Part shown: positions 26,634 through 55,268 of the stretch, one piece after another
How the letters are laid out: the number at the start of each line of letters is the position of its first letter
Position numbering within the stretch: the first letter of the stretch is position 1
From: a virus
Strand: one strand, 5' to 3'
Length of the DNA: 57,369 nt
Virus record (IMG/VR): IMGVR_UViG_3300010354_000105
Location: 1-57,369 of that record
Made by a program: the position numbers and the translations under genes
The notes under the pieces: model-generated
What the model saw: only the letters and a program-made list of their open reading frames with translations
What the model was told of the DNA's origin: nothing
The model's database searches: none

Positions 26634-29600
26634 TTAAGTCCAGAAGGTCACTGGATCTTTCTTACGTTGTATTTCATGCAATGGATTTCGAGAATTGGCT
26701 GGTATTTTGAATACCTCTAATCTTCCTTGGGAATCGGATGATGGAATTAGAACAAAACCAATGGCAAAATCAACAACATTAAATTTATATCTGGCCTCAA
26801 GTCTACCAAAAAATCTTTTATCTAGTACATCTACTAGATTTGCTGCAACTTGTTTTTGAAGGTAGGAGAAATATCTATTATCTGAACGATTTACAAGATC
26901 AAGTACTTCACTGACAACTTCCCTAGGAGCATTAATAAGCCCATCGATTTGTATTTGTGGCCCCATTAGTCTTAACTGCAACTTGGCAACTTCGCTAATA
27001 CCAAATGTTTTTTCGATTCCAGGAACAGTTACTACCTTTTGGAAAGCCCGATTTAAAACAGCAATTCTTTTATCTAAGGGGAAGTCCTGCCATAATTCCC
27101 AAATACTGCCTTTCTTGAGTCCTAACTTAAGAATATTTCCTAAACTCAATCCGAGACTCTTTGATGAGCCTTCTTTTTCGTCGGCTAAGAAAGTGCCTTT
27201 GTTGATCATCAAGGTTCCGCCAGACAAATTCAATGCTGACACACCTTTGTATCCAGGTACTCGTTGAGCAAAATATAGTAAATCTCTGGGCTTGTTGGCC
27301 GACGAGGTTGTTATAATACTATAAGTTGTTTGTGCTATGACTGCGTTGCCTGTTGTGAATGCAGCATTTGAAGTAAAGGGGTAAGATGCACCGGTACCGT
27401 AGACGATTCTTACTGCACCACCTGCACCGTCACCACCTGCCACAGCATAATTAAATGCAGTACCAATTGGGCCGCCTCCTGATCCACCACCGCCATATGA
27501 TCCGCCTGGGCGCCCGTTTCTAGGAATAAATTCAGAAAACGTTGACCCATTTGTCCCACTGCTACCACCAGAACCGCCACTGCCACCTGTGAATGTGGTG
27601 CCAACATAAGAATTAGCGGTCCCGTCCCACGCTAACCTAGACACCCTTACATTATACAAACCACCGAAAACTTGATTACCTGAATTAAACGAACTGTCAA
27701 AATATACAGTTTGGTTCAAACCATAATTAACTGAATATAGCAGTGTAGTTCCGTTGTAGTGTTTGATGAGCCCGTCGGTGTCATAAACTATGTAAAATTT
27801 ATTATTAGGATTCCATGCACCGCTGAAAAAAACTTGAGTGCCATTGTGGTGAACTGAATAAATGTCAGTTCGATATGGGTAGGAGGCGTAATCTAGTGTA
27901 TCAAAACTAGCATTGGTTGCAGGATCACTATTCCAACCTATCATGGTATATCCTACACCATTATCTCCAGAATCGGCTCGTTTATTAAATTCAATAGTAC
28001 ACGGTGCTGTAAAAGGCTGTAGAGAATAAACTTGTGCGTCCCAAGCATCGCCTGCTGCCGATCTATACATGTTTGTGTCAACAAACGAAGTAGCAGGACT
28101 GTTTCTAAATTGAAATCTAACATGACTTATATAAGAAGCCTCGTCTGTGGCAACTTGGTCTGCGCCAATGAAATGACCGATAGTAATATTTGCCGCAGTG
28201 TGATTAATCCATCCTGTGTCTACATAAAAGTATCCATTGAAACCGTCACCTCTATTACTGCCCCAAGGTGCGTAACTGTACCCATTGTAAGTTCTCCAAG
28301 AAAAATTTCCACCATTGGCACTATTTGCCGAGCATAAGTTTATAGTAGTTGAACTTGCACCGGCCACGTTCCAAACTTTGGTAAATTGTAAGTATCTAAC
28401 TCCCTCGACATCAAAGAAATTGGTTTCGCCATCGACACTGTCAACAAAATGCCAGTAAAAACTATATCTGACTTGTGTGTGCTGCGGAATAGAACTAGAG
28501 AAAAAATAGAACCAAGTGGACGGAGAATGCCCGTGTGCAGTGGTGTTACCAAATCCGCCCATCTGCGTCATATTAAATGTTGTAGTCGGGCTCCAATTAT
28601 TTAAATAGGGTGTGGCATCGTTACCTTCGTAGTATTCTGTTGGTCCTACTAGGTTAACGGTGCCCGAAGTAAGATAGTTCATCTGCTCGTAAACTACTTG
28701 TGATGATGTTAATGTGGCTCTAGGATTTAAATTTCCTGCTGCCCCAGTGGATCCCGATTGTAATAACCCGACACCACCGCCGCCACCACCGGCTGACCCT
28801 ACATAATCATAGATAGATGGGCTACCATAAACGCCTGCTCCGCCACCGCCGCCTCCCCCAACTGCACTAGTAGCGATATTGGCAGGTACTGTGCCTGACG
28901 TATGTGCATCGCCACCGCGACCACCAGAACCCGAATAACCACCAGCACCGCCACCACCTGCCGCAGCCCTGAATCCAGAACCAGTCCAAGTACCGCCGGG
29001 GCCGCCTCGGCCGCCACCGTCGCCTACATACTCGCCCCCAGGATTACCAAGTGATAAACCAAAAGTTTCTACTAAACTTGCATCGGCTGCGTTAAGCGGA
29101 TATGTTCTTCCGCCGCCCCACATGATCCTTACAGCACCTCTCCCGCCAATACCGCCGGCACCTGACGCAGTTCCGCCACCGCCATACAAACCACCATTAG
29201 CAGCCCGACGATTTGCTTCAGGTAAATTTGGTGCACCTTCAGTGCCCCAGGTACCGTCTGTACCACCTGAACCTCCACGACCGCCTACCGTTTCAAAATC
29301 AGCACCTACAGCGCCAGCACCACTGGTGCCTTGACCTAGTATACCTACACCCCCACCACCACTGGGCCGTTGACCAATGTAAACTCCATAATCACGTGCA
29401 AAAGCGCCGCCACCGCCGCCGCCACCGCCGGACCCATTTTGTCCATTAAGCCCGGTTGTTGCATTGTAGCCTCCGCGTCCTCCACTTCCGCTATACCCGC
29501 CAGCACCACCAGCACCGCCCTCATAAAATAATGCAGTAGGGGTTCCACCTTGACCACCAGCACCACCGCCATCACCTACAAAAGATCCACCTGCACCACC

Positions 29601-31646
29601 TGTTGATCCACCAAATCCGGCCACTGTTGCAGTGCTTATAAAATAACTTGCTCCGCCATTGGCATTTAAAGCGCCACCGGCACCAACTACCACAGTGTAA
29701 GTTTGTCCCGGGACAACCGGAATGTTATTTCGCCAACCAAGGCCTCCCCCGCCACCGCCGTTGTTGGTGGCTGAGTTCGGGCCACCGCCACCGCCAATGG
29801 CCACTACACTAACACTGGTAACACCAGCCGGGGCAGTCCAAGAATAAGTACCGGCAATGGTATAGGCAATCTGACCAATGGTCTGAACAGTACCTCGTTG
29901 GCTCAGTGCTACTCCTCCCCCACTGCCGCCGAATCCTGCTACTGTAGCGTTACTCAGGAACCAACTGTCACCTCCATTGTTGCCTAACGAGATACCAGTG
30001 CTCAGTGCGCCGCCGCGACCACCTTCGCCTACTCGAATTGTGTAACTTTGCCCCGGGGACACTGCAACATTTCCCCATCCTAAACCTCCACCGCCACCGC
30101 CTTCGCCATGGTTTGAGCCACCACCTCCGCCACCAACGGCTACTACACTAACACGAGTCACGCCCGGGGGTGCCGTCCAAATATAAGTCCCCGGTAAGGT
30201 ATAAGTAACCTCGCCCTTTCGTGTGTTATTTCCAAAATAATCGTCTAAATCCTTATCAAGTGCTTGATAAGGCACTATTGGCGCTTGGTCCGCAATTAAT
30301 CGAGAAGTAGTATTAATTACAACACCACGACGTCCAGGTGCCAACGTAGAGAACCAATATCTGCCCAGCGCAGTCGATAAATCAGTAACAGTAGGGTTCG
30401 GGAAATTTAATAACAAGTTCGCTTGAATTGTTAAATTGCCACGAAAAGCACTGTCAGCAATGGATTGTCTTAGGTCGGGGATGTTATCTCTGTAACCATA
30501 CAGTCTCGGAGCGACAGAAAGATAATAATAAAGTTCTCTTGAATTCTTTGGTCTAGTGGTAGGTTTAACCAGGGTCTGTGGATAAACTAGGCTATAATCT
30601 TTTTCCACATAGAATGTGGCACCAACATTAGTCACAAACACATTGGCTGTGACACTGCTGTTTGTAGCGGCTAAAACTTGTGTGGTTACTGTAAACCCGG
30701 TTGTGGTATCAATGATTCTAACGTTTGAATTAACCGGAAATGGTACAGCATCTTGATAAGAAAATGACAGAGTAGTGACATTGGCGGTGTCCCTGGTATA
30801 AGGTGTTAAAAAGTCGTTGTCGTCGAGATAAAAAGAAACAGTATTACCAAAGGGCGTTGTATCAATACCGGTGACCAATAATCTCAAATCACCTGGTGTT
30901 TCTGTGGTATAATTAACAGGACTCAGTGTTTGTAGAATGCCAATGTTGCTGGTGATATTTTCACCTAGGTTTCGATCAACACTTAAACGTACAGTTTTAT
31001 TATTTTCAGTGTATCTAGAAGCCAGCAGTCTTTCCTGCGGAGTACTGGCCGACCTCCAATCTTGATAGGGCAATTGTGCAGTGGGTTTTACAAAAGATGA
31101 CAAATTCTGTATGGTCATGCCACCTAAGTAATCTATAGGGAATCCTTCAATACTGTTAAAAGTAACAGTGTTATAATCGGTGCTGATTACATTGGCTGTG
31201 GCAGAGAAACCTGTGTCAGAATCTTTGATTAAAACTACATCACCGGCATCAAATTTATCAAAATACTGCATCCTAATAGACGATGTTTCATCTCTACGAA
31301 CCACTGGTTGATTATAAGACAATCCAGTTTTAATTGTGTTAACAGTGGGCATGCCATAGGCTGTTAACACAATATTTCCATAATTACTAGAATTCTTTGT
31401 GACTACGTCATTGTCAACAAAACTCAAGACCAACACAGAACCAGGACTGATAGTGGCTGCTGTGTTGGCTCCTAGTACACCCACTGTGGTTGTGGTCAGA
31501 GTGTCAACATTTGGTGCTGTAAAATTACCAGTGTACAGTGCCTGACCAGTGGTGATTCTAAAATTAGAAATATAACCCTTAAAGAATCCAGTGGTAACCG
31601 GAGTATCGTAAATGAACGGATCAAATGAATCTATACTATTAGGCAT
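26634..31646 (-). CDS. Giant tail fibre with nested Gly-rich domains, beginning in a truncated LamG fold
   Basis: A 1670-residue mosaic. It begins MPNSIDSFDPFIYDTP and at once GFFKGYISNFRITTGQALYT, which is normally the end of a LamG-like lectin fold; the front of that fold is missing. Residues about 60-470 hold beta modules with DAGDVVLIKDSDTGF and FYLDDNDFLTPYT. A Gly-rich domain starts near 480 but is interrupted by a second complete Gly-rich domain (594-850) and again by a globular region (about 982-1349) before closing near 1418. The C-terminal 220 residues are charged and non-repetitive (GSIWELWQDFPLDKRIAVLN), perhaps an assembly domain. It starts one base after the 31648 stop, without a ribosome site. 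Binding function is inferred from domains. Confidence 0.8.
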   Translation of the reverse strand: MPNSIDSFDPFIYDTPVTTGFFKGYISNFRITTGQALYTGNFTAPNVDTLTTTTVGVLGANTAATISPGSVLVLSFVDNDVVTKNSSNYGNIVLTAYGMPTVNTIKTGLSYNQPVVRRDETSSIRMQYFDKFDAGDVVLIKDSDTGFSATANVISTDYNTVTFNSIEGFPIDYLGGMTIQNLSSFVKPTAQLPYQDWRSASTPQERLLASRYTENNKTVRLSVDRNLGENITSNIGILQTLSPVNYTTETPGDLRLLVTGIDTTPFGNTVSFYLDDNDFLTPYTRDTANVTTLSFSYQDAVPFPVNSNVRIIDTTTGFTVTTQVLAATNSSVTANVFVTNVGATFYVEKDYSLVYPQTLVKPTTRPKNSRELYYYLSVAPRLYGYRDNIPDLRQSIADSAFRGNLTIQANLLLNFPNPTVTDLSTALGRYWFSTLAPGRRGVVINTTSRLIADQAPIVPYQALDKDLDDYFGNNTRKGEVTYTLPGTYIWTAPPGVTRVSVVAVGGGGGGSNHGEGGGGGGLGWGNVAVSPGQSYTIRVGEGGRGGALSTGISLGNNGGDSWFLSNATVAGFGGSGGGVALSQRGTVQTIGQIAYTIAGTYSWTAPAGVTSVSVVAIGGGGGPNSATNNGGGGGGLGWRNNIPVVPGQTYTVVVGAGGALNANGGASYFISTATVAGFGGSTGGAGGSFVGDGGGAGGQGGTPTALFYEGGAGGAGGYSGSGGRGGYNATTGLNGQNGSGGGGGGGGAFARDYGVYIGQRPSGGGGVGILGQGTSGAGAVGADFETVGGRGGSGGTDGTWGTEGAPNLPEANRRAANGGLYGGGGTASGAGGIGGRGAVRIMWGGGRTYPLNAADASLVETFGLSLGNPGGEYVGDGGGRGGPGGTWTGSGFRAAAGGGGAGGYSGSGGRGGDAHTSGTVPANIATSAVGGGGGGGAGVYGSPSIYDYVGSAGGGGGGVGLLQSGSTGAAGNLNPRATLTSSQVVYEQMNYLTSGTVNLVGPTEYYEGNDATPYLNNWSPTTTFNMTQMGGFGNTTAHGHSPSTWFYFFSSSIPQHTQVRYSFYWHFVDSVDGETNFFDVEGVRYLQFTKVWNVAGASSTTINLCSANSANGGNFSWRTYNGYSYAPWGSNRGDGFNGYFYVDTGWINHTAANITIGHFIGADQVATDEASYISHVRFQFRNSPATSFVDTNMYRSAAGDAWDAQVYSLQPFTAPCTIEFNKRADSGDNGVGYTMIGWNSDPATNASFDTLDYASYPYRTDIYSVHHNGTQVFFSGAWNPNNKFYIVYDTDGLIKHYNGTTLLYSVNYGLNQTVYFDSSFNSGNQVFGGLYNVRVSRLAWDGTANSYVGTTFTGGSGGSGGSSGTNGSTFSEFIPRNGRPGGSYGGGGSGGGPIGTAFNYAVAGGDGAGGAVRIVYGTGASYPFTSNAAFTTGNAVIAQTTYSIITTSSANKPRDLLYFAQRVPGYKGVSALNLSGGTLMINKGTFLADEKEGSSKSLGLSLGNILKLGLKKGSIWELWQDFPLDKRIAVLNRAFQKVVTVPGIEKTFGISEVAKLQLRLMGPQIQIDGLINAPREVVSEVLDLVNRSDNRYFSYLQKQVAANLVDVLDKRFFGRLEARYKFNVVDFAIGFVLIPSSDSQGRLEVFKIPANSRNPLHEIQRKKDPVTFWT

Positions 31647-31647
31647 A

Positions 31648-34600
31648 TTAATTTATTGTAAAGCTACCGCCTCCGAAAAATGCACGATATGTGTAAGAAC
31701 CGCCAACATAGGCAGTGCCGCCTGTTATATTTAACGATCCTGTAATATATCTAATGATCACAATGCCGCTGCCGCCGCTGCCGCCGCTGCCGGACCCTGC
31801 ACTGCTTTGACCCCCACCCCCACCACCTGAGTATTGAACGCCGTTGCCCCCATTGACATTTTGTCCCGATGTTGATGCTAACCCGCCACCGCTGTTGGTG
31901 TCAACTGTGCCCTGTACACTATTATCAAATGTACCCCCTGCACCACCTCCGGCGAATCCACCGGCTGTTAGTCCTAGTGTGTATGTCCATTCAAAGAAAC
32001 TGCCGTAAACACTTTGTGCTCCGTTGCCGCCGTTGCGTCCTGAACCTGCTGATCCTGCACCACCTCCACCACCGCCCCAACTGTTTAGCGTTCCGCTGCC
32101 GCCTAGACCATCACCGGCCCCAGGAGCACCATTATTACCCTGCGGCGACGAACCTGAACCTGCCGCGCCTGCACCTATGTTTAATGCACCACCACCCCCT
32201 GACCCCCCTGACCCACCGCCCGGAGTACTTAATCTACCAGCACCACCACCACCGCCTAAGGCAGTAATGTTTATGCCTGGTCCCGAAATTGAAGAATTGC
32301 CACCAGTACCCCCTCTACTAGATGTCGACGTTGCACCCGAGCCGCCGCCACCGACGCCCACAGTGTAGGTTCCATATCGGTAGAAGGTCTTGGATCCCGA
32401 ATAGTTTGAACCAGTTCCGCTGTTGACACTGTACCAGAATCCACCAGCACCACCGCCACCACCAATATCTTTTCCGCCTCCACCACCACCGCCGACTATA
32501 ACAAAATCCAAGGCAACAATTGGGTTAGCATCATTGACTGTGACTGTGGCTGCTGTTGCTACCACTGTGCCACTGGTGCTGTTGATCCTTAGTTGCAAGA
32601 CTATGGTTTCACCTGGATCAGCAACTAAATCTGCTACGGTGTTTAATGTAATCGATGCCGACCCCGAGGCCTGGGTTCCGGTTATTGTGACATTGCCGCT
32701 GTTCAGGCCATCGCTGAAATCAGATCCAGTTGTTGATCCAGCGTTTGTCCAATATAACACAGTTCCTGGCAGGATATTTGTTGTAGCAATGGTAAATGTT
32801 ACACTTTGTCCTTCGGTAATGGTTGTAGTACTTGGTGTAATAGAATATGTGGCATCTAGCACTGTCACAGCCGAACTGGTGGCCACTATTGGACCAGCAA
32901 TGGAATTTTCTCTCAATTGAATAATAATTGTTTCGCTGCCTTCTGTGGCTGAATCCAAGGCAGATGTAACAACAAACGATGCAGATCCAGATGCGTAGGT
33001 TCCATTTATTACCACATTTCCACTGTTTTGTCCTGAAGCAAAATCGGCTGCACTTGTGGTGCCGCTGTTGGTCCAGAAAATAGTGGTTCCAGGAACAACG
33101 TTGCCTGTAGTGATCGAATATGACACTGAACCACTTTCAAGTATAGTTGCCACATTAGGTGTTATAGTATACACAGGAGTCAATGATGTATCAGTTACAG
33201 TAATTGTCTGGGAAGTTGCTAATAAAATACCCCCTGCTGAACCGTATCTGAGATCAATGACCATGGTTTCCGGGCCTTCAGTGGCACGATCATTGGCCAC
33301 TGTGATTGTGAAGAAGCCTGAATTATTTGTTACTGTAAATGTTCCTTGATTTGACGCACTTGTGAAATCAGTGACTCCATTGGTGGTACCAGTGTTGATC
33401 CAATAAAACACTGATCCATCACTTACATTAGTGGTGCTAACCGTAAAGCCAACTGTGTTTCCTTCGGTGACTGTTAGTGTATTTGCACTAATAGTACCAG
33501 TGAACAGAGCCAAATTAAGTATCCCTGACGTTGTAAAAGTATGGTACACATAACCACCAATGGCTGTTGCATTACCTCCGGTACCTAAAACTGTATTTCC
33601 GGGATAGCGTATTACAGCTACTCCACTACCACCTGCTTGCCCTTGTTCTGGGTTGCCGTCGGCACCACCAGCACCTCCGCCACCACCGGTGTTTGGTAAC
33701 CCAGCAGTACATCCATTGGTGCTGTATGTAGCACTGCCACCTCCGCCTACGCCACCCACAGATCCAGTTCCGCCACCGCCGCCTGCGAGATAATATACGC
33801 CTCCACTCAATTGACCCACTGTGCTATGTGCTGCTGGGAAAGGGTTGGCTAGGCCTGCACCACCGACTCTATTAGAACTTGTACCACCAAATCCGCCGAC
33901 GGCTCCTGCACCACCACCACCGCCGGGTTGTCCAAATTGATTAGAACTTCCTCCATTATTTCCTGAACCATAGCCGTATGTGGAATTCTGTATTGCTACT
34001 CCCGGAGAACCGTAAATTCCACCTGATCCGCCACCGCCTGAACCACCATTACCACCATAGTTACCTGCATTAATGATACCACCCTGACCATAGCCGCCGC
34101 CTAGGGCAACTATGTTGGCTGTGCTAATTGATCCACTGGAGTACATGGTTACATTCGCGTTAGAGAAAAAACTGCTAGCAGTACCATTATAGACGGGATC
34201 ACCTTGATCGGTCCACACCGGTCGTGCCCCACCTGCTCCAATGGTAACATAGTATTGAGTCAGTTTTGCTAATCTGACAGGTAACGAAACATAGCCACCA
34301 GCACCACCACCACCGGCATTGTGATTTCCACCATTGGCATAACCACCAGGACCGCCGCCACCGATTAACAGTAATTCACCAAGTATTAAATCGTTGACCA
34401 CAATCGACGGCGCTGACGCCACAATCGGGCCTGACGTGCTATCGGTCCTTAGATCAAAACTCAAATACTCTGTATTTTCTGCTACCGCATCATCGAGAAC
34501 ACCAAAATCAATAAATGCATTATCATTATTAATCACAATCGAGCCCGAAGCGATTCCGCCTACTAGGTCAGCCGATGACAAGGTGCCGCCCAAGGTCCAA

Positions 34601-37600
34601 TAGTAGGTACTCAAGTTCGGGACATTGTTGCTGGTTATTGTAAATCTTACGCCACTTCCTTCAGTGATACTGCCACCGGCAATATTTGATGTAATTGTAA
34701 ATGTAGGCGCTGCATCAAATACTTGCACCGGATCAGCCGATGCTTTAATAGCACCTGATGGAGAACTTACTCTAATATCAAGAATCATTGTTTCAACAAC
34801 ACCTTCATACCTATCCAATGCAGGCACTATGGATATGGATGTTTGGGAGTTGTTTATGTAGGCTACACCTGAATTTATATTTCCTGCGAAATCTGTGGCA
34901 GATACGTTACCACTCAGTGACCAATATAAAACTGTTCCGTTTGGCACATTTGGACTTGTGGTCACTGTGTACAGTACCGTATTGCCTTCAAATACAGAAC
35001 TCACGTTTGATGTTATAGTGATAGATCCAAAATCAACCAAGGACACGTTTGGTGATGTGGCTAAAATTAAGTCTGCTGCAGAAATTAATCTAAAATTCAA
35101 TACAATGCTTTCTGTATTTTCATCTACAATATCAAAATTGGTTGTTCGTGTAACTGTGACAGACCCATTCGACAGAGTTGCGTTTCCAGACATCAGCCCG
35201 TCATTGAAGTCAGCAGCATTTGTTGAACCTACGTTTTCCCAAAAAATATTAATTCCATCAGGTAAGCCAGAAGTGACCAGAGTAAATGTAACTGATTGCC
35301 CTTCAAAGATAGAATTAGCAGTTACGTCGACGCCGGATGTTCCTGCTGTTGAGAAAATGTAGATTGGATCGCTGATCTTATAAATTAAACTGTCGAAACT
35401 TCTGGTTCTCAAATTGATAAAGAATCGTTCAAGCGCAGTATCCGGATCAATGGTAGGCAAGGTAACTATGGTCGCCGAATTATTTAAAAATGTAGTTGTG
35501 CCCGAGGACGGACTTAGATCTGTCGAAGTTATTTCTCCATTGGTGGTCCACCAGAGTTGTGTACCATTGGGAATGGCCGAATTAGAAACCACTGTGGCAA
35601 CCACATTCTCTCCTTCGGTGTACACTCGTTTTGGAATAGAAATGGAAATGTTAGCCACTGGGGCCGGTAAACTTTCTCTAACAATAACCGTGTTTGCTTG
35701 TGCTACAATAAATCCCGTCACACTGTTAATTCTTAAATCTAAGTTTACAGTCTCATTGCCTTCGAACAACAAATCTTCAACTGTGCTAAAAATAAACGAT
35801 CCAGTGACTTGATTTGAGCCTATAGACGAAACAGTAAACGATCCATTAGCTGAAATTATATCGTTTGAACTTATTGTAGAAGTATTTCGTAAAGTATAGT
35901 ACAATCTTGTGTTATTTGGTACATTTACACCCGATACCTGATATACAATGGATTCGCCTTCAAAAATACTCTGAGCGCCCGGTGTTATAGTGAAGACGTA
36001 ACCTTGCAAGAAACCACTTGAAGTAAAGGTATGCACAGTATAATTGCCTAATGTGCTGATATTACCACCAGCAAACCATGGCGCACCAATATACCTTGCG
36101 ATTACTATGCCTGAGCCCCCATTGCCTCCATTGTTATTAACATTATAGTGTGAACCGCCGCCACCACCGCCGCCGGTGTTAATTCCTCCAGCACCACCAG
36201 GAACATTTGTTTGACTATTAAGGGTACCCACTGTGCCGTTGCCGGCAAAATTTATACCATTGGTGTCACCGTAGCCGTCAGTGGTTGACGTTAGCGACGA
36301 TCTTGGCGCTCCGCCTCCTCCGCCACCAAGACCACCATTGCCTCCATAAGAAGTATATCCCGCGCCGCCACCGCCACCGCCCCAATATAGTATTCTACCT
36401 AATATGGTATTCAATACACCCGCGCCGCCTGTGTTATAAACTAACCCAGTGCTGAACATTTGATTGGAGTCAGCCGAGGTAACGTTTCTGTTTCCGGCAC
36501 CACCGCCACCGGCAGGATACCATTGGCCTCCTGAAAATCCTCCAGTAAACCCTTGTCCAGGTATGCCCCATCCGAAGTTGCTTAATTGTCCCGAAGCACC
36601 ACCACCGCTGGCTCCTGAACTAGCAGGTGTATTAGTAGTGGTAATATCGTGTGTGGTCGCTCCTGCGCCACCGCCTTGTGCTATTCTTGATTGCGAATAA
36701 TTTTGATCATTTACACTGTAAAAATTTGTAATGTACTTAGACTCAATGGGATAACGTACTATGGCAATACCATTTTGCCCGCCGTTGCTGTTTGATCCGC
36801 CATAACCGGCCTGATACCCGCCACTGGTTCTTAGGTAATTACCAACATCACCGGGGATGTCAAGATTACCATTGGAAAACGCTGTGTTGACCAGCAGCGG
36901 AGAATTTGCTGAGTAGGAACTTCCGCCTCCACCTCCGCCCATGGTGTTGGCCTCAGAATAACCACCACCCGAGCCACCCATCCAACCGCCACCTCCGCCC
37001 CCACCATACGAGTTAGTTCTGCTGTTGCCACCTTGGAACAATGCTTGGTTACCAGCAGTGTTTGCGCTGTCCGAACTGGCGTCGGCTCCTGGAATAAATT
37101 GAGTACCACCACGACCTGCATAACTGGTTTTTCCATCATAAGGAGAAAAACCGTTTTGACGATTGGGATAACCGCCGGCACCACCTCTATTGGCCGATCC
37201 GGCGCGACTTGATCCGCCACCGCCACCGCCTGCGGCAAGCAATAGAACTGTTTGTGAATTATAAACATTACTATTATACAAGGCAGTAAATCCGCCGCCG
37301 CCACCTCCATAACTGTTGTCAGTGCCATTGAAACAAGCAGATCCACCGCCCATGTTACCGCCGGCTGCACCCGAGTTATAGTTTCCGCCACCGCCAATGG
37401 CAACATAATATCTCGAATACAGTGTAGGAGTTATTTCTGTTCTAACTGCTGCACCACCGCCTCCATAGGATCCTGTGCCCCAACCACCAGGTCTTCCGCC
37501 GGCACCGCCTGCGCCCCATAAAAATATCTCTATTCTATCAGTGCCAACTTGGTCAATGGTCAATGTAGCGTTTCCACTGGTAATAGTATGAACGTTATAT

Positions 37601-39564
37601 AATCTACCATTTACATTGGCCACAGTGGGCAATATAGGAGTAGCACCATCGATATTAGAATTTACTGTGACAATATTTCTTACAAATGGTTGAGCGTTGG
37701 CTTTGGTAGATTGTTCTCCTACCAAGAAAGGATTAAATGTGGTAGTGTAAGGATTACCTGATCCCACAGACAAAGTTAAATTGCCAGCACTGTCAGTAGT
37801 TGCTGTGCTAGTTTGGCACAGCAAGGTAACAGTGTTGGCCACAGTTGTAAGAGCACTAGTCGAAGGAGTAAAGTTTGCTGTATAGATCGCAGTACCCACA
37901 ACTAATCTATAATTAAAAATATATCCTTGGAGGTTTGAAGTATTGTTCTGTGCTGTGCCAATGGTCAATGTGTCACTGGTCGGTGTTACGGCTGTGCTGT
38001 TATTCCCAGCACCTATTAGTGTGCCATTTCTAAAGAAACACCATGCACTGCCATTTCTAACCATGGCAATGTGATACCATACCCCGGTGGTCACCGATGT
38101 GGTACTACTTTCAGTAAAATCAAAACCACTGCTGGTATTAAAGTAAAATCTCCAATGTTGGTTGGCTATGCTGTCTTGGCCGGGGCCACGAAGTTGTAAA
38201 ATCCACTGACTCGAACTATTCCATTTACCAGTGATGTTGACGTTTACAGCATTGATCCCAGTAAAATACACCCACATTTCCAAAGTAAAACTACCGGATC
38301 CGAGATCAGTTTGAGTAGTTTGCCCAACGCTAAGATAATCACCAGTTCCGTCAAAAAACGTCGAGGCTATGGCGCTGGTTGTTAAACCAAATGGATTTAC
38401 ATACTGTGCGACTGTGTCACCAAAACGTGTTATTGGGAGATTGTTTAGACTACTGTCTATTAGATTATCGGTTTGGCAGGTCAGCAGTGTAGTTCCTGCC
38501 ACTGCTACCAATGGGCCAGTTGGAGGTGTAAAATTTATTGAGTAGACACTTGTACCGTTTACTATTCTAAAATTAGAAACATATCCGTTGAACCAAGATC
38601 CGTCGCCATTTATATTAAAGAAATAACTGCCTAAACTAAAAGTTCCGCCGGTGGTGGCTGTGCCAAAATTAAGAGAACCATTGGCATAACGCAAAGCACC
38701 GTCCACAAACATCAACAAGGTATTAACGCCAGCACGAACTATGGCCACATGATGCCAGGTGTTAAGCCTAATTAGGCCTATTGGCGATGTTACCGGAAAC
38801 CCACTTTGCCATGCCCAACCTCCGGTGCCCATGCCAAACTGCACTTCGCCATTGGTTAATCCAACCCACATTTGATAAAACAACTGCGAGCCACCGGTGC
38901 CTAGACTCATCACAGACCCATTGTTACCTAAACTGGCATTACGGTAAAACCATCCTTCAATGGTCCAGTTGTTGTACAAATTGAGATTTAATGCTGCGAT
39001 AGGTGGTGCCGAAATTGCGTCGCTGTCGCCGTCAAAAAATATAGAATTTGATCTGGTTAGACCGCCGGCATCAACTTCAGAACTCTTTAATAAAGAACTT
39101 GATCCACCAACTGTGCCCCTGGGCACACGAGTTCCTGCAACTGCCCCGGTACCGCCTGCACCAACTGTGACAGTGTGTGTGGCATTTAGATCTAGTACAA
39201 CGTTGCCAGACAAGACACCGCCACCACCACCGCCGCCTCCCATGTCAGATCCGCCACCTCCGCCGGCGCCTACGATCAAGTATTCTACATTTATTTCTTG
39301 TGCTACCCGTAATTTAATCAATCTAGAAATTGACGTAAACCCATTGCTAACTATGACATAAAATGGTGGAGTTTCAGTGATGCCGTACAAATTGGTTGTA
39401 GTTCTTAGATACCCAGTGGCAGAATCAATGGTAATATAATCAGGATTCCCTGACAACGAATAAGTCATAGTTGATCCCGCTGAATCACTGGCCACCACAG
39501 GCATATAACTCAGTGATCCGGCGATTGCCGGTATAGTATAAGTGTATACAATATTATCGGGCAT
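31648..39564 (-). CDS. Giant fibre protein (2638 aa): LamG, Gly-rich and eight Calx-beta repeats
   Basis: The largest gene here. Domain order, approximate residues: an Ig/cadherin-like unit (1-90); the first half of a Gly-rich domain (93-168); two LamG-like lectin folds (about 170-360 and 395-620; IFFDGDSDAIS, WTIEGWFY, GYVSNFRIVNG); a complete Gly-rich domain (678-938); the second half of the first Gly-rich domain (961-1155); five Calx-beta repeats (1190-1725; for example FEGNTVLYTVTTS, GTVLYWSLSGNVSATDF); a Gly-rich domain (1728-1990); three Calx-beta repeats (2018-2345); and a last Gly-rich domain. Calx-beta domains often bind calcium, so the shaft may need calcium. Start and stop abut both neighbours (TAAATG and TAATATG). 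Confidence 0.85.
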   Translation of the reverse strand: MPDNIVYTYTIPAIAGSLSYMPVVASDSAGSTMTYSLSGNPDYITIDSATGYLRTTTNLYGITETPPFYVIVSNGFTSISRLIKLRVAQEINVEYLIVGAGGGGGSDMGGGGGGGGVLSGNVVLDLNATHTVTVGAGGTGAVAGTRVPRGTVGGSSSLLKSSEVDAGGLTRSNSIFFDGDSDAISAPPIAALNLNLYNNWTIEGWFYRNASLGNNGSVMSLGTGGSQLFYQMWVGLTNGEVQFGMGTGGWAWQSGFPVTSPIGLIRLNTWHHVAIVRAGVNTLLMFVDGALRYANGSLNFGTATTGGTFSLGSYFFNINGDGSWFNGYVSNFRIVNGTSVYSINFTPPTGPLVAVAGTTLLTCQTDNLIDSSLNNLPITRFGDTVAQYVNPFGLTTSAIASTFFDGTGDYLSVGQTTQTDLGSGSFTLEMWVYFTGINAVNVNITGKWNSSSQWILQLRGPGQDSIANQHWRFYFNTSSGFDFTESSTTSVTTGVWYHIAMVRNGSAWCFFRNGTLIGAGNNSTAVTPTSDTLTIGTAQNNTSNLQGYIFNYRLVVGTAIYTANFTPSTSALTTVANTVTLLCQTSTATTDSAGNLTLSVGSGNPYTTTFNPFLVGEQSTKANAQPFVRNIVTVNSNIDGATPILPTVANVNGRLYNVHTITSGNATLTIDQVGTDRIEIFLWGAGGAGGRPGGWGTGSYGGGGAAVRTEITPTLYSRYYVAIGGGGNYNSGAAGGNMGGGSACFNGTDNSYGGGGGGFTALYNSNVYNSQTVLLLAAGGGGGGSSRAGSANRGGAGGYPNRQNGFSPYDGKTSYAGRGGTQFIPGADASSDSANTAGNQALFQGGNSRTNSYGGGGGGGWMGGSGGGYSEANTMGGGGGGSSYSANSPLLVNTAFSNGNLDIPGDVGNYLRTSGGYQAGYGGSNSNGGQNGIAIVRYPIESKYITNFYSVNDQNYSQSRIAQGGGAGATTHDITTTNTPASSGASGGGASGQLSNFGWGIPGQGFTGGFSGGQWYPAGGGGAGNRNVTSADSNQMFSTGLVYNTGGAGVLNTILGRILYWGGGGGGAGYTSYGGNGGLGGGGGGAPRSSLTSTTDGYGDTNGINFAGNGTVGTLNSQTNVPGGAGGINTGGGGGGGSHYNVNNNGGNGGSGIVIARYIGAPWFAGGNISTLGNYTVHTFTSSGFLQGYVFTITPGAQSIFEGESIVYQVSGVNVPNNTRLYYTLRNTSTISSNDIISANGSFTVSSIGSNQVTGSFIFSTVEDLLFEGNETVNLDLRINSVTGFIVAQANTVIVRESLPAPVANISISIPKRVYTEGENVVATVVSNSAIPNGTQLWWTTNGEITSTDLSPSSGTTTFLNNSATIVTLPTIDPDTALERFFINLRTRSFDSLIYKISDPIYIFSTAGTSGVDVTANSIFEGQSVTFTLVTSGLPDGINIFWENVGSTNAADFNDGLMSGNATLSNGSVTVTRTTNFDIVDENTESIVLNFRLISAADLILATSPNVSLVDFGSITITSNVSSVFEGNTVLYTVTTSPNVPNGTVLYWSLSGNVSATDFAGNINSGVAYINNSQTSISIVPALDRYEGVVETMILDIRVSSPSGAIKASADPVQVFDAAPTFTITSNIAGGSITEGSGVRFTITSNNVPNLSTYYWTLGGTLSSADLVGGIASGSIVINNDNAFIDFGVLDDAVAENTEYLSFDLRTDSTSGPIVASAPSIVVNDLILGELLLIGGGGPGGYANGGNHNAGGGGAGGYVSLPVRLAKLTQYYVTIGAGGARPVWTDQGDPVYNGTASSFFSNANVTMYSSGSISTANIVALGGGYGQGGIINAGNYGGNGGSGGGGSGGIYGSPGVAIQNSTYGYGSGNNGGSSNQFGQPGGGGGAGAVGGFGGTSSNRVGGAGLANPFPAAHSTVGQLSGGVYYLAGGGGGTGSVGGVGGGGSATYSTNGCTAGLPNTGGGGGAGGADGNPEQGQAGGSGVAVIRYPGNTVLGTGGNATAIGGYVYHTFTTSGILNLALFTGTISANTLTVTEGNTVGFTVSTTNVSDGSVFYWINTGTTNGVTDFTSASNQGTFTVTNNSGFFTITVANDRATEGPETMVIDLRYGSAGGILLATSQTITVTDTSLTPVYTITPNVATILESGSVSYSITTGNVVPGTTIFWTNSGTTSAADFASGQNSGNVVINGTYASGSASFVVTSALDSATEGSETIIIQLRENSIAGPIVATSSAVTVLDATYSITPSTTTITEGQSVTFTIATTNILPGTVLYWTNAGSTTGSDFSDGLNSGNVTITGTQASGSASITLNTVADLVADPGETIVLQLRINSTSGTVVATAATVTVNDANPIVALDFVIVGGGGGGGKDIGGGGGAGGFWYSVNSGTGSNYSGSKTFYRYGTYTVGVGGGGSGATSTSSRGGTGGNSSISGPGINITALGGGGGAGRLSTPGGGSGGSGGGGALNIGAGAAGSGSSPQGNNGAPGAGDGLGGSGTLNSWGGGGGGAGSAGSGRNGGNGAQSVYGSFFEWTYTLGLTAGGFAGGGAGGTFDNSVQGTVDTNSGGGLASTSGQNVNGGNGVQYSGGGGGGQSSAGSGSGGSGGSGIVIIRYITGSLNITGGTAYVGGSYTYRAFFGGGSFTIN

Positions 39565-42500
39565 TTATATGTTACTCACAAACGTCCACGAAGGTTGTGG
39601 TGCACCAGCGAATCCAATTCTGAATTGTGCGTTGCCGCTGGGACCAATAACTTGATTCGTTCCGACGATGGTTTGTTGCGCTCCATTAAAGTAAACAGTT
39701 ACAGTATTATTTTGAATAACTATGGCTAAATGAGTTATATAACTTGTATTTAAGGGTTGTTCAGTTCTACAGAATAATCGGGTTTCATAGGCTCCTTTTA
39801 CAGGCGAAAAAATATCTAAGGATCTAGGATATACTTGACCAAAGCAAATTTGCAACTGACTATTTAAATAGATATCTAACTTATCGGTGTAATAAAAATT
39901 AGAATTACTCCATAAACTTGTAATCACCTGTATCGGTGATCGTGCCATGGGTCGTATCATCATTTCAATTGTGGTTGGTACAGAACCAAATCCCAACATG
40001 GCCGAAGGCGACGATTCAATGTAATCTTGATATCCGTCGAAGTACACAGCCGGGCTTTCTAAACGTACCACAGGATTAATTGTCACTGACTGTGTTGGTG
40101 TAGTATTACCGGCTGTTAATGTTAATATGTCGTCGTCGTCTAAATACAGTTGTACCAGGTTGTTGGTTATTCCAGACTGTCCAATAACCTGCATGGGCGG
40201 CTGTACAATGCCTTCGTTTATGTATTTTCTTAATCCAGCAAAACTGTTTCTCAATGGTTCATCATTGACCACGTAAAATTTATTAAACGCAGGGTTAATA
40301 TTGCTTATTCTAGAGATGGTGCCAGTGATACCCAATTTATCGGGTATAAATCCGGTTTGCGGACGAATTTTGAATGAAGCCGGTTTTTCAACAGTTAAAT
40401 GAGTAAATTTATGCCTGATGAACGTTCTATTCACACGGGCAAGATACAATTCGTTTACCGGAACCGAAAATCTCGGTACTATCCTGACAGGAATAGGTTG
40501 ATAATAAAATCTTTCTATGTGACTACTAATGGCCATGGCAACGTTAGCCATGGCCAATCTACCCAATCGAGCAGTGTTTCTTAAAGTTCGATCGTTATCG
40601 GTCCTTAGAGTAAACACTTGTTTTTGTAACAAATTAACTCGTTGATCGAAATCCACTGCGGACAAAGTACTTGCTTTAATAACAGGTATTACTTTACCCT
40701 GTGTTTTTAAAACGTTTTCTAAATTAAGACTTACTGCGTCTAAATTAATATTTGTATTAATAAATTGAGATTTGTAAATCGGTTTTAGTAAGTCTATTAG
40801 ATAGCGTTCTTGAGCCGTGTAACTAGATTTTGAAGTTAACGTAGTGACATTAGAAATATTATTTCTTGTAACAGTTGTAACCACATTTGAATCAAGACGA
40901 GCGAATCTTGTTCTCAAAAATTCTATGTCTGTTAAAGTATGAAAATTGCCAGAGATTCTTTTTTCAATCAAAGAAACATTGTCTAATAGGGCGTCAGTTG
41001 ATACACTAAATAAATTTTCCGGTCTTAATCTAAGAGTGGCTTGATCAACTTTGTGGAACAGATTAAATCGGTCAGCCGGGATTACTTTTGTACGATCTCT
41101 ATCAAGTTGAGCGAAAGATGCTGATCCATGCTGAGGATAAACATCGTGCATTCTTCTGAATACCATCTGTGGCTGAATGTACGTGGCTTCACGTCTGTCG
41201 GGCGGCGGCACAAAGAAACGAGGCCCAATTACACTTATTTTGGGCAATGGCGCCAGGTAACTTTCTCTGGTGGCCATAAAGTTTGAAAATTTTGGTTCAA
41301 CTACGGCTCGATCTGCCAAGTTAGTAGGATGGCTTCTTAGTTTCGTTTCTAAATTAACAACGCTTCTTTTGCTTAAACTTAAATTGGTCGCGTCTTGTTC
41401 TTGTTTAAAGATAGCGCGAACACTGAATCCCATGGGATTATTACTGACCCAACTAATGTCAGGTCTTAACGGAAGTGTCTTGTCCCTGTTTAAAAATACC
41501 GGTAATAAACTGCGTGAAGGAGTTCCTTCCTTGAATACATACACTGAACTGGACTTAAATGCACCAAGTTTTAGTTGATTGTTCAAATTAATTTCGCGAA
41601 GTTTTAAGGAATCGCGATTTAAAATTCCTGGCAGTATTCGAGACTCATTGAAGCCTTTGATAACAAACTGACTTCGTTGTGCAAAACTAATATGAGATTT
41701 GGTTACTAGGTCATTGACTTTATTATCCGCTGGCCTTGCATCAACAAAACTGTAATTAATTTTGTCTGTGCCAAGTATTACTTGAGCACGATAAGGAATC
41801 CCAAAGTAAGTACTGATATAATAATTTGCCTTGGGTGAACTTATGTTACCAACAAATGAATTCAATCTAAAATCGTTGATGATTTTATCTTGTGTGTAAA
41901 CTGGACTAGAGCCTCTAGCAAGAATTACAAACTTTTCAGATATTGGATCAGTGGTGTTAATGGTAACAGTTCTAGTCGTACATGCTGCCACTGTGTAAAT
42001 TTTAGTGATACCAGCAAAGGCATCGGTTACTCTTATGTTTTCGCCTACTGCATAAGGCACAACTGCTTGTTCAGGAATATATAAAATCTTGGTTGCGGAT
42101 GTGCTAACAGTAGGTTGAAAAACATCTAAATCATTAATATAATAATTTGCAGTCTCATAGGTTACAGTGCTAACACCTAAGATGTTGATAATCGGCGGAA
42201 AATCGTATGAATAATCAACATAATCAGTTAAATTCCCTGAAACTGAAACTAAATTCGGTGATAGAGTTGATAGTCCTAATATAGCATATGAATTAGCCTG
42301 CGTTGAGTTGTACTCGGTGGGTGTTGAACCTAATTCTAGTTGTGGCCAATATACATTAACAGATCCAAAATTCGATCCTACTGTGTTATCTACTAAAAAT
42401 ATAGTCGACAAATTGCATTGACTGCCAGTGGTAAACGTTGAAACTATTCTAGAAAATGTGTTAGCATTAATGTTAGTAGTATAGTTTGTGGCCTGAACTA

Positions 42501-42918
42501 TATCCAACGAATTGGTATTATCTACTATTCGATAAAATACATTCGCAGCAGTGCCGGATTTAGCATAAAAAGAAAGTGTATAGGTGGTATTAGGCAATAC
42601 CGATATTCTTTGACCAAATGATGTGCTGTTAGCCGTGACTGTAATATTAAAACTGTCATCGTTGTTTCTAAAAACAGTAACGCCATTTGGTAATATGGGA
42701 TCGTTGTCGTATTGATAATAATTAACATTATCAAAATCAGCAGTAAAAGTGGTGTTACCAGTCTGACGTAGCCAATTTGTTCGAGTTAGGTCTTCGGTCC
42801 AGATTAATAAATTAGTATATCTATAAGTAAACACCGGCGTAACATCAAACCCACCGAAACTGGTTAGATGTTGTACTGCATTAGGAGACCCAGGAGCCGG
42901 AAAATTAAGTTGAGGCAT
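39565..42918 (-). CDS. Large tail fibre with carbohydrate-binding-like domain, ending in a truncated LamG fold
   Basis: An 1117-residue protein. Residues about 35-210 form a jelly-roll, carbohydrate-binding-like domain (NLLIWTEDLTRTNWLRQTG ... YTLSFYAKSG ... VYWPQLELGSTPTEYNST). Residues 230-940 are a long, less repetitive shaft with many Arg/Lys and few Cys. At about 949 a LamG-like fold begins (AVYFDGYQDYIESS, ITHLAIVIQNNTVTVYFNG, QFRIGFAGAPQPSW) but the protein stops before the usual closing GYISNFRI segment. That segment opens the gene at 26634-31646. The modules GENIRVTDAFAGITKIYTV and LYLDDDDILT are also shared with that gene. A weak ACTAAATA box lies upstream, after a strong terminator. 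Confidence 0.78.
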   Translation of the reverse strand: MPQLNFPAPGSPNAVQHLTSFGGFDVTPVFTYRYTNLLIWTEDLTRTNWLRQTGNTTFTADFDNVNYYQYDNDPILPNGVTVFRNNDDSFNITVTANSTSFGQRISVLPNTTYTLSFYAKSGTAANVFYRIVDNTNSLDIVQATNYTTNINANTFSRIVSTFTTGSQCNLSTIFLVDNTVGSNFGSVNVYWPQLELGSTPTEYNSTQANSYAILGLSTLSPNLVSVSGNLTDYVDYSYDFPPIINILGVSTVTYETANYYINDLDVFQPTVSTSATKILYIPEQAVVPYAVGENIRVTDAFAGITKIYTVAACTTRTVTINTTDPISEKFVILARGSSPVYTQDKIINDFRLNSFVGNISSPKANYYISTYFGIPYRAQVILGTDKINYSFVDARPADNKVNDLVTKSHISFAQRSQFVIKGFNESRILPGILNRDSLKLREINLNNQLKLGAFKSSSVYVFKEGTPSRSLLPVFLNRDKTLPLRPDISWVSNNPMGFSVRAIFKQEQDATNLSLSKRSVVNLETKLRSHPTNLADRAVVEPKFSNFMATRESYLAPLPKISVIGPRFFVPPPDRREATYIQPQMVFRRMHDVYPQHGSASFAQLDRDRTKVIPADRFNLFHKVDQATLRLRPENLFSVSTDALLDNVSLIEKRISGNFHTLTDIEFLRTRFARLDSNVVTTVTRNNISNVTTLTSKSSYTAQERYLIDLLKPIYKSQFINTNINLDAVSLNLENVLKTQGKVIPVIKASTLSAVDFDQRVNLLQKQVFTLRTDNDRTLRNTARLGRLAMANVAMAISSHIERFYYQPIPVRIVPRFSVPVNELYLARVNRTFIRHKFTHLTVEKPASFKIRPQTGFIPDKLGITGTISRISNINPAFNKFYVVNDEPLRNSFAGLRKYINEGIVQPPMQVIGQSGITNNLVQLYLDDDDILTLTAGNTTPTQSVTINPVVRLESPAVYFDGYQDYIESSPSAMLGFGSVPTTIEMMIRPMARSPIQVITSLWSNSNFYYTDKLDIYLNSQLQICFGQVYPRSLDIFSPVKGAYETRLFCRTEQPLNTSYITHLAIVIQNNTVTVYFNGAQQTIVGTNQVIGPSGNAQFRIGFAGAPQPSWTFVSNI

Positions 42919-42982: not shown

Positions 42983-45886
42983 CTACGCTGGGACTGCGAA
43001 TCGGAAGTTATTGGTATATGCGTTTGTGGTATTAGCCGAGCTAGCACCAGTGTCTTCCAAACTACGTGTTGACTGGAAGTTGGTACCACCTAGGGTCATC
43101 CTAAAGGTTTGAACCGAACTTGTTAACACCCAGTGGTCTGTGGCTGTTGCTGTGGAATCGTAAAAATCATTGCTGTCAATGGTAACACTGACTGTGTCCA
43201 TTAATGTTCCTAATGAACTTGGAATGATCTTTAATCCATAAATTCTACCACGAATATCCGGATCGTACATTGGTCCTAACACCACAACCGGGCTAAACAT
43301 AAAACGTTTAGCGTTGTAAATGTTGGTGTACACAGGAACCATATGACCCATGTGTGGTTGGAATATGGTGTTGGCCGGGTGTGTGATTGCGCTAGCCGAC
43401 GGTGTACCGGGGCTAGTATAAGATCCGCAACCACCTAATTCAAACAAGTGACCCCAACGACCTGTTGTAATGGTAACAGCACTATATGTATGTGCGTTCA
43501 ATCCTACTAGGTCGCCGGCACTGTTTCTAACTCGTGGAGTTGCCAACACGTTACCATGAACCGCAGTATGGCTGATCGGTGCAGTAGGTGCTTGAGTTGC
43601 CCCAACAGGGAATCTATTTCCGTGGATGTAAGCAAATGCAGGCCATGGACTTACACCAGGAGTACCCGATACCGGAGCACCTGTGTTGATCACAACACCG
43701 GCTGTGGTACCAGCACCTGTTCCAAGATCTTCAGGTTGTGCACGCTCAAACTCAATGACACCTAACCATGCTTGAGGCAAGTTAGCAAATGTCTTACCTT
43801 GTGTAATAAAGTAACGTGGCTTAGCAAACAAGTACAAGAATCCACCTGTGGTATGACTCATATTGGTTAAATCCGTTACGCCGCCCACTGCCGAAGTACT
43901 GTCTGACAAGTTTGCTAGATTAATACCAACACCGTTGGTACCTGCATAAGAAGCAGCCCAACGCTCGTAAACAGTGAAGTTGTAAGCACAACCTGCTGTA
44001 GACAATGCGTTACCTGTGCCCGAGCCAGTGGCCAATGGATAGAATCGGAATCCAAAGAACTTACGATCGTTACTGGTATTCAGCAGAGTCGTACTGGCTT
44101 CTGCAGTCTTGTTAGGAGCACTGTAAACATACTCTAAGAAGTCAGTGGCAGCACTGATTGTGTAAATCAAAGCAGGGTTTGTACCGTTACTGTAGATATG
44201 ATTCTTCAGTGGGTGACCAAGACCAATGGTAGTAGAAACTACAGATGTCACATATGTGTACAAAGGCTGTGTTCTAAAGATTGGTGTTGCACTGGAAATA
44301 GTTCCTGATTGTGCAATGGTTAACGAAGTGTCACTGGCAATCGCGGTGACTGTAAAATACTGACCAGCCATGATAATTTCAGCACCAACGTGCAACTGTG
44401 TGGTAAATGCTGTACCAACTCCAGTTACTGTGGATGTTGCTAATGTGGCCTGACCAGTTATGGCAATTGGTGGACCGCCACCACCTTGAATTTTAATCAA
44501 GTTGTTAACGTTAAAGTTGGTCGCTGATGCCACAACAATACTAGTGTTACCTGCTGTATAAGTTGTACCAGCAGTGGTCAACATTGTTGTTGCTGTTGAG
44601 AATTTATTACCGGTTCCCGAACCTTCACGAGTTCCTTCTAACACATAACCATGCATTTTACGTTTTTCGTATATGGTACTGGTTGTGGTAGTGTGAGTAA
44701 ATGGAAGACTAACTCTAAATTGTGTGGCACTTACGATTTGTGTCACATAAACTTCAGTGCCGTCAATGATCAACTCGTCACCGACTCTGGTTTCTGTTGT
44801 TAGTGCACCATTGGTCACGTTAATTAAACTTTCATCACGATAGAATGGTATGCCGGTCACAGCTTGACGTAGTACGTTAACAGCAGTTCCAACAAATCCA
44901 GTGTAGTCGCTTATTGTAGCCGATGTAGTTGCGCCCGGGACAAAGGTAAAAGTACGTAGTTCGTCGCCAATCCAAACTTGATCGCCGGAAACTAAATCCC
45001 AACTAAAATTGGCATTAGTGCCAGTTACACTAGAACTACCAGCACTGACCGCGAGTGTGCCCCTTGGATAAGCCTTGATTTTTAATCCTGTTCCAGTAAA
45101 ATCCATGGGCTGTGTTAATGTGACACTGGTATTATTATTAATACTAGCAATCACTCTCACACGACCATTGATCTGAATGGTACGACCGGCTACACCATTA
45201 GTGGCTTTAAATATGCTTGTACCTGGGCTAACTGGTGAAGCCAATGTAGTTGTCAGTGTTGCTGCTGTATCACTGGTCACTGTGGCAACAATATAGTAAG
45301 CAGACCCAATCTGTACATAATCTCCAGGAAACAAACCGTTGGCACCACCTTGGCTAGTTACAAAACTGGTTCCAGTTCCAGTAACATTACCACCTGTGTC
45401 AACTGCCACTGTGCCAGTTAAAGCCGAACCAACTGTCACAGAGTTTGTGAGTTCTGCTAAGAAGAACGTGTTTAAACCAGTTACGTTGGCAGATCCGTTT
45501 GTCACAGAAACTGTGCCATTGCAACTTCCGCGCACAGTAACGTTGGCAGTTCCAGTTAATGTTTGGCTAATTAATTTACACTGAGCCGGCACAGTTATGT
45601 CCGGACTAAATCCCGAAGTAACTGTAAAACTGGTGTCAGATGTGATAGCTTGCACAGTTCTAACTTGGTTACCAATGTAGACCACGTCGCCTGCTCTTAC
45701 TTGTGTGCTAAAAAGAGTGTTCACTCCAGTAACTGTGGTACCGGATGTTTGCACTACCCCTTGTAACGTGTCATTTCTTGTCCACTGATCAAACAATGCC
45801 AAAAGAGGCCAATGTTCTGCACCGGTAGTCGAAGGCCCGTATGTTATCGAAGCACTGTTTCTACCAAGTTCATTAAGTGTTGCCAT
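42983..45886 (-). CDS. Large virion structural / tail fibre protein with beta repeats
   Basis: A 967-residue protein. The N-terminus (MATLNELGRNSASITYGPST) leads into five or six beta repeats of about 55-80 residues in the first half, each with the pattern G(T/V)-x-V-x-x-G-x-x-V-T-G-x-x-x-x-F ... GD-x-V-x-IG ... V-x-x-I-x-S-D-T. The second half is globular, with LEYVYSAPNKTAEAS, KFFGFRFYPLATGSGTGN, a NRFPVGATQAPTAP segment and a final MFSPVVVLGPMYDPDIRGR region; it reads like a surface-layer or fibre tip. Similar proteins occur in marine T4-like virions. It has an AGGAG ribosome site and tandem late boxes upstream, plus its own terminator, so it is a single-gene late unit. Confidence 0.75.
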   Translation of the reverse strand: MATLNELGRNSASITYGPSTTGAEHWPLLALFDQWTRNDTLQGVVQTSGTTVTGVNTLFSTQVRAGDVVYIGNQVRTVQAITSDTSFTVTSGFSPDITVPAQCKLISQTLTGTANVTVRGSCNGTVSVTNGSANVTGLNTFFLAELTNSVTVGSALTGTVAVDTGGNVTGTGTSFVTSQGGANGLFPGDYVQIGSAYYIVATVTSDTAATLTTTLASPVSPGTSIFKATNGVAGRTIQINGRVRVIASINNNTSVTLTQPMDFTGTGLKIKAYPRGTLAVSAGSSSVTGTNANFSWDLVSGDQVWIGDELRTFTFVPGATTSATISDYTGFVGTAVNVLRQAVTGIPFYRDESLINVTNGALTTETRVGDELIIDGTEVYVTQIVSATQFRVSLPFTHTTTTSTIYEKRKMHGYVLEGTREGSGTGNKFSTATTMLTTAGTTYTAGNTSIVVASATNFNVNNLIKIQGGGGPPIAITGQATLATSTVTGVGTAFTTQLHVGAEIIMAGQYFTVTAIASDTSLTIAQSGTISSATPIFRTQPLYTYVTSVVSTTIGLGHPLKNHIYSNGTNPALIYTISAATDFLEYVYSAPNKTAEASTTLLNTSNDRKFFGFRFYPLATGSGTGNALSTAGCAYNFTVYERWAASYAGTNGVGINLANLSDSTSAVGGVTDLTNMSHTTGGFLYLFAKPRYFITQGKTFANLPQAWLGVIEFERAQPEDLGTGAGTTAGVVINTGAPVSGTPGVSPWPAFAYIHGNRFPVGATQAPTAPISHTAVHGNVLATPRVRNSAGDLVGLNAHTYSAVTITTGRWGHLFELGGCGSYTSPGTPSASAITHPANTIFQPHMGHMVPVYTNIYNAKRFMFSPVVVLGPMYDPDIRGRIYGLKIIPSSLGTLMDTVSVTIDSNDFYDSTATATDHWVLTSSVQTFRMTLGGTNFQSTRSLEDTGASSANTTNAYTNNFRFAVPA

Positions 45887-52525: not shown

Positions 52526-52532
52526 TTTATAT

Positions 52533-55265: not shown

Positions 55266-55268
55266 TGT

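Follow-up and report, generated by a model that had tools for sequence, protein, structure and literature searches.

Fibres encoded by two genes in one phage and by a single gene in a relative are already known, as is a variable host-recognition cluster in aquatic T4-like phages (PMC4728585, PMC7029224). A fibre for which T5 uses a single protein is built in the T5-like phages DT57C and DT571/2 from the products of two neighbouring genes, LtfA and LtfB; these are believed to assemble into a branched fibre that carries two receptor-binding parts, and deletions can fuse both genes (PMC4728585). The part of the report cited here on pelagimyophages and cyanomyophages, which are T4-like aquatic myophages, describes a hypervariable host-recognition cluster with tail-fibre genes, with lectin-type (concanavalin A) domains among the putative receptor-binding proteins (PMC7029224). 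The locus analyzed here resembles LtfA/LtfB in that separate genes take the place of what a relative encodes as one fibre protein. It differs in that the second gene of the T5-like phages supplies an attachment segment of its own, similar to phiEco32 gp15, whereas here a third gene lies between the two parts and a pair of nested beta domains is cut through; the two are likened by description. As presented in the cited part of the aquatic phage report, that cluster is a variable gene cluster (PMC7029224), whereas a fibre gene cut within a domain is the feature of our locus. In the open-access literature, we found no account of this fibre family or of a fibre gene cut within a domain by another fibre gene, which is weak evidence of novelty.

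The window, by which we mean the whole stretch of DNA analyzed, is a linear virus record of 57,369 bases, a fragment from a metagenome. Its tail sheath, tail tube, head-tail adaptor and fibre families, together with a 1049-aa protein, identify the virus by homology as a T4-like, cyanophage-related myovirus. The 1049-aa protein has Synechococcus myovirus relatives at about 40% identity and hundreds of relatives in viral metagenomes. In minus-strand order, a 967-aa gene is followed by three genes of 1117, 2638 and 1670 aa, here called A, B and C, and then by the 1049-aa gene, such that A lies upstream and C downstream (Table 1). A first-pass annotation, made from the sequence alone, had read A and C as the two parts of an ancestral fibre gene of about 2800 codons into which a 7.9 kb adhesin gene had been inserted; the peptides that it quoted do occur in the translations. 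With A, the 967-aa gene and one intact relative as queries, there were no matches among 50,697 phage records, nor did megablast with the region or tblastn with A return any from phage records. Promoter and terminator scans gave signal at chance level.

Table 1. Features of the fibre locus, in the 5' to 3' order of the minus strand; positions are those of the window.
Feature	Position	Strand	Evidence or remark
967-aa gene	42983..45886	(-)	Upstream synteny anchor; homologues 43-66% identical, directly 5' of single-ORF gene in relatives
A: 1117-aa gene, putative 5' half of ancestral fibre gene	39565..42918	(-)	N-terminus (MPQLNFPAPG..) homologous to starts of L013, L015, L086
A N-terminal FPAPG segment and CBM4/9-like domain	42244..42918	(-)	Weak Pfam CBM_4_9 match (E 0.011); aligned with L013, L015, L086, L120
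Complete fibre-repeat module in A (residues 247-324)	41947..42180	(-)	8.4e-16
Fibre-repeat module front half in A (residues 911-949, model 1-39)	40072..40188	(-)	6.9e-6
LamG front in A (residues 957-1103, model 4-132 of 208)	39610..40050	(-)	LamG profile, Pfam 13385, AF2, PDB folds
B: 2638-aa probable inserted fibre/adhesin gene	31648..39564	(-)	He_PIG-like start, 2 intact LamG, glycine-rich domains, Ig-like / Calx-beta-like repeats
Two intact LamG of B (residues 172-392, 400-613)	37726..39051	(-)	LamG profile
C: 1670-aa gene, putative 3' half of ancestral fibre gene	26634..31646	(-)	Ends like single-ORF relatives L013 and L015, in a variant of the family motif
LamG rear in C (residues 19-65 matched, model 138-183; closing strand to about residue 97)	31356..31592	(-)	1.7e-8
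Fibre-repeat module rear half in C (residues 121-170, model 29-83)	31137..31286	(-)	3e-7
Complete fibre-repeat module in C (residues 258-335)	30642..30875	(-)	3.4e-13
C C-terminal RKKDPVTFWT	26637..26666	(-)	Counterpart of ..KEPIQFW[NS] in relatives
1049-aa virion structural protein (phrog_5838)	23166..26315	(-)	Downstream synteny anchor

A LamG profile of 208 model positions was built from 38 intact domains, all from other contigs and none from the window. With this profile, the tail of A matched the front of the model (1.8e-7, 36.9 bits) and the head of C matched the rear (39.8 bits), while the best score among 2,000 shuffles of each was 9.4 bits for A and 8.7 bits for C. The two matches are complementary, stopping at model position 132 in A and resuming at 138 in C, which upholds the first-pass view that a LamG-like fold is split between the two genes and that the N-terminus of C is LamG-like. 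Pfam Laminin_G_3 (PF13385) covers the tail of A over profile positions 1-131 of 151, C alone gave no Pfam LamG match, and neither A nor C singly holds a whole-domain profile match to this LamG/concanavalin A-like domain. Joining the two halves end to end brought no gain with Pfam (28.7 vs 28.9 bits for A alone) because the Pfam profile ends soon after the break, and a family-specific profile was needed. AlphaFold2 (AF2) predicted an LG/pentraxin-type sandwich for the tail of A (pLDDT 79, pTM 0.77), which compared with PDB structures matched LG and pentraxin folds at Z about 10; structure prediction for the head of C alone gave no confident fold (pLDDT 58, pTM 0.28).

The LamG domain is not the only one divided. 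Two sequence units that the first-pass annotation had seen in both outer genes (YLDDDDILT and GENIRVTDAFAG) proved to be parts of one fibre-repeat module of about 83 residues. We built a profile of this module from relatives alone, where it found 137 modules across the family (7 of them partial), and searched it against window ORFs of at least 150 aa. The module was confined to A and C, with two matches each, and B was without any. One match in each gene is complete; the other is a front half just 5' of the LamG front in A and a rear half just 3' of the LamG rear in C. Given that the module front precedes LamG in A, that the module rear follows it in C, and that B has none, the arrangement indicates that LamG was formerly nested in a loop of the module and that both domains are broken at the same point. 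Two nested domains cut at one point are not expected of independent genes, and it is this double break that brings an insertion history close to certainty.

To place A and C in a family, relatives' loci were collected via the 1049-aa and 967-aa proteins and their adjoining genes were read, loci being counted as distinct groups when their 967-aa homologues were less than 90% identical. In 19 distinct groups, a single ORF lies directly after the 967-like gene, and a 1049-like gene comes next in 14 of them. These ORFs, which we define here as the FPAPG..PIQFW giant fibre family, vary about 40-fold in length, from 130 aa (L091:6551-6943) to 5392 aa (L094:195-16373), with 1716, 1851, 2780, 4233 and 4471 aa among them. 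Their ends are far more constant: QFW[NS] closes the protein in 19/19 groups, the place in the locus is also kept, and the FPAPG start is present in most relatives, the N-terminal MPxxxFPAPG being absent or altered in L083, L088, L091, L100 and L116. Seven small or divergent relatives are without fibre-repeat modules, and in L095 and L124 an intact LamG lies inside the single ORF, not nested in a recognisable module.

A bears the family start and directly follows the 967-aa gene, as the relatives do, and the end of C, DPVTFWT, is a variant of [PT][ILV]QFW[NS] at the same place; the nearest relative, L003 (72-77% identical), ends DPVTFWS. Relatives with one ORF joining an A-like start to a C-like end, which the first-pass annotation had proposed to look for, occur in L013 and L015, where a 967-like gene, one ORF of 1851 or 1716 aa and a 1049-like gene stand in that order. 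No relative was seen in which A or C stands alone with a complete fold. One continuous frame is the usual state of the family (19 groups), and three frames were found in the window and in one other locus. On homology and synteny, A and C are descended halves of a giant fibre gene rather than an intact member of the family. Fibre modules do shuffle freely in this group, which would suit a history in which A and C never formed one gene, came by their common modules through domain shuffling and carry half LamGs as chance truncations. We give such a history almost no weight: it does not account for the exact complementarity of two nested domains, the synteny, or the conserved start and end in single-ORF relatives, and among the relatives we saw no basal one with A-like and C-like genes both separate. 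The complementary LamG and module, the synteny and the single-ORF relatives support the insertion read into the locus by the first-pass annotation, and A and C are very probably the halves of one fibre gene cut by an inserted B.

The other locus with three frames lies on contig 3300010160_000248 (L092:6092-11243, L019:3238-9708), where the same fibre gene is split inside its N-terminal CBM4/9-like domain. In the first ORF (1542 aa), the FPAPG start is joined by the front of the CBM4/9-like domain to about model position 75, after which the same frame leads through Ig-like repeats and a glycine-rich domain to a C-terminus of another kind. The second gene encodes a 169-aa tail-fibre chaperone (Pfam Phage_tail_APC just under the cut-off; PHROG tail-fibre assembly), and in the third ORF (2156 aa) the CBM4/9-like domain resumes at model position 103 and the protein ends in PIQFWN. 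The 5' junction is also present in a contig from another metagenome that is 95% identical over 7.7 kb. Fibre genes with a tail-fibre assembly chaperone gene (Phage_tail_APC) behind them are known, for example from Alteromonas phage V22 (PMC7289586), and the insert of this contig likewise closes with a fibre end and then such a chaperone gene; the window, in contrast, is without a chaperone gene between B and C. Since a different domain is cut and the insert is different, the comparison marks this split as separate from and independent of that in the window. The second case suggests a recurrent route of fibre diversification, with these giant fibres apparently serving more than once as the place where new host-recognition parts land.

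B itself reads as a fibre or adhesin gene. Its N-terminus gave a weak He_PIG match (E 0.003, below the cut-off), and a phmmer search with this part against the window's other fibre proteins returned no significant match. Within its repeats, Pfam gave only Ig_3, the Calx-beta reading being by eye, and its end resembles, also by eye, the window's separate glycine-rich fibre genes at 47360-52525 and 52533-55265. We recognised no attachment segment in B, and its nearest viral-contig matches were weak, at about 31-33% identity. Neither GC nor codon usage marked B as foreign, its codon usage being like that of A and C.

At the 5' junction, the TAA of A is directly followed by the ATG of B in the same frame (TAAATG), and at the 3' junction, one base separates the TAA of B from the ATG of C (TAATATG), which offsets the frame of C by one base. 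B abuts both neighbours as closely as had been claimed, within 0-1 bases. The likeness that the first-pass annotation saw between the two boundary starts is real (12/16 bases) but carries no special meaning: most fibre genes here begin ATGCC, and an unrelated pair is equally alike (9/13 bases after ATG). A target-site duplication was dropped as a candidate for these regions, other starts being equally alike. The ribosome-binding sites of A, B and C are weak, like those of most fibre genes of the window. The shared frame of A and B with a single TAA between them, and the one-base offset of C, could also reflect entry of B in frame as an internal block of a frame of about 5400 codons, which a later stop and a one-base shift turned into three genes; the largest relative reaches 5392 aa, and the 5' junction of L092 is an in-frame fusion. 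However, each break coincides exactly with an ATGCC start, and B is free of family modules and ends, by eye, like separate glycine-rich fibre genes, and we consider in-frame entry improbable.

The window is a metagenome fragment with repeat-rich fibre genes, and an assembler might have spliced in a second fibre gene. Among the viral contigs scanned, none spans either junction, L003 ending inside C, and single-sequence scans of viral contigs with A, with the head of C and with a degenerate LamG signature taken from that head found no relative. The junctions themselves argue the other way: there is no repeat of at least 15 bases within 200 bases of the 5' junction, nearby repeats at the 3' junction are of glycine codons only and lie more than about 120 bases away, and the exact contact of stop and start at both ends is not as expected from a misjoin. 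Codon usage agrees across the junctions, and an independent phage is split likewise, with its 5' junction in two assemblies. An assembly artefact is very unlikely.

Whether the divided gene still works is less settled than how it was divided. If the insertion is accepted and the gene is now decaying, the functional fibre would be A or A plus B, leaving C, or just its LamG-half head, as a remnant. The predicted structures lean this way, in that the head of C folds poorly alone and the half-domain of A nearly folds alone; so does L092, whose N-terminal piece, fused in frame to the insert, looks like a simple fibre-tip change. On the other hand, the reading frames of A, B and C run uninterrupted for 1117, 2638 and 1670 codons, and C starts with ATGCC, as is common among fibre genes here. 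Residues 892-1670 of C appear to be under purifying selection relative to L003, with dN/dS of about 0.06 (dS being saturated and the L003 contig ending before the junction), like the 1049-aa gene. This conserved 3' part argues against decay without settling the matter, as the split state of L003 is not visible, and we regard decay as unlikely, though less so than any other alternative raised here.

The final residues of A, SWTFVSNI (39565-39594), resemble the LamG strand carried by C (GYISNFRI; compare SWFNGYVSNFRI in B), and AF2 places a short strand there. This stretch may be an evolved cap or chance, and the predicted model allows that the domain of A might close on itself and leave the strands of C spare.

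Returning to an insertion that left all three genes in use, we reconstruct the following course of events. The gene very probably stems from a large, uncultured T4-like (cyanophage-related) myovirus group whose ancestral fibre gene carried an FPAPG segment, a CBM4/9-like domain, repeat modules (one with LamG in its loop), a glycine-rich region and a PIQFW end. B as a second fibre gene, or the distal part of one with its own stop, was very probably inserted in the LamG loop between model positions 132 and 138, cutting both LamG and the surrounding module, presumably by recombination between phage fibre loci. Given the exact stop-start contacts and the weak ribosome-binding sites, A, B and C are likely translated in series by stop-start coupling. 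All three may then enter the virion as a composite fibre in which B serves as an extra adhesin. With the conserved start on A and the conserved end on C, the fibre would be continuous only if the two proteins stayed attached, which could be achieved if their half-domains pair non-covalently at the cut LamG and module. This putative pairing is the least certain step, and we hold it as a possibility somewhat short of an even chance; if the halves do re-pair, they would form a natural lectin-like domain assembled from two virion proteins. More tentatively still, giant fibre genes with fixed ends may act generally as a landing site where distal fibre parts, with or without a chaperone gene, enter beta-sandwich loops, the cut domain re-forming between two proteins such that the old fibre is kept and a second adhesin is gained at a defined position. 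On the insertion history, the window captures a seldom-visible intermediate of fibre diversification, with one host-recognition gene inside another and both parts still open.

Other parts of the window are also rich in fibre genes. Three paralogous fibre genes (1721, 910 and 320 aa) at 47360-56231 have a common N-terminal region and IPT/TIG-like repeats, the repeats being named by eye. Beyond them, a 311-aa ORF at 56281-57369 has its frame still open at the contig end, and over the N-terminal 95 residues it is similar to C 1235-1334 (34% identity). Among minus-strand starts at 8041-57216, fibre genes are mostly ATGCC with weak ribosome-binding sites, and many other structural genes are ATGGC or ATGG with stronger ribosome-binding sites than the fibre genes.
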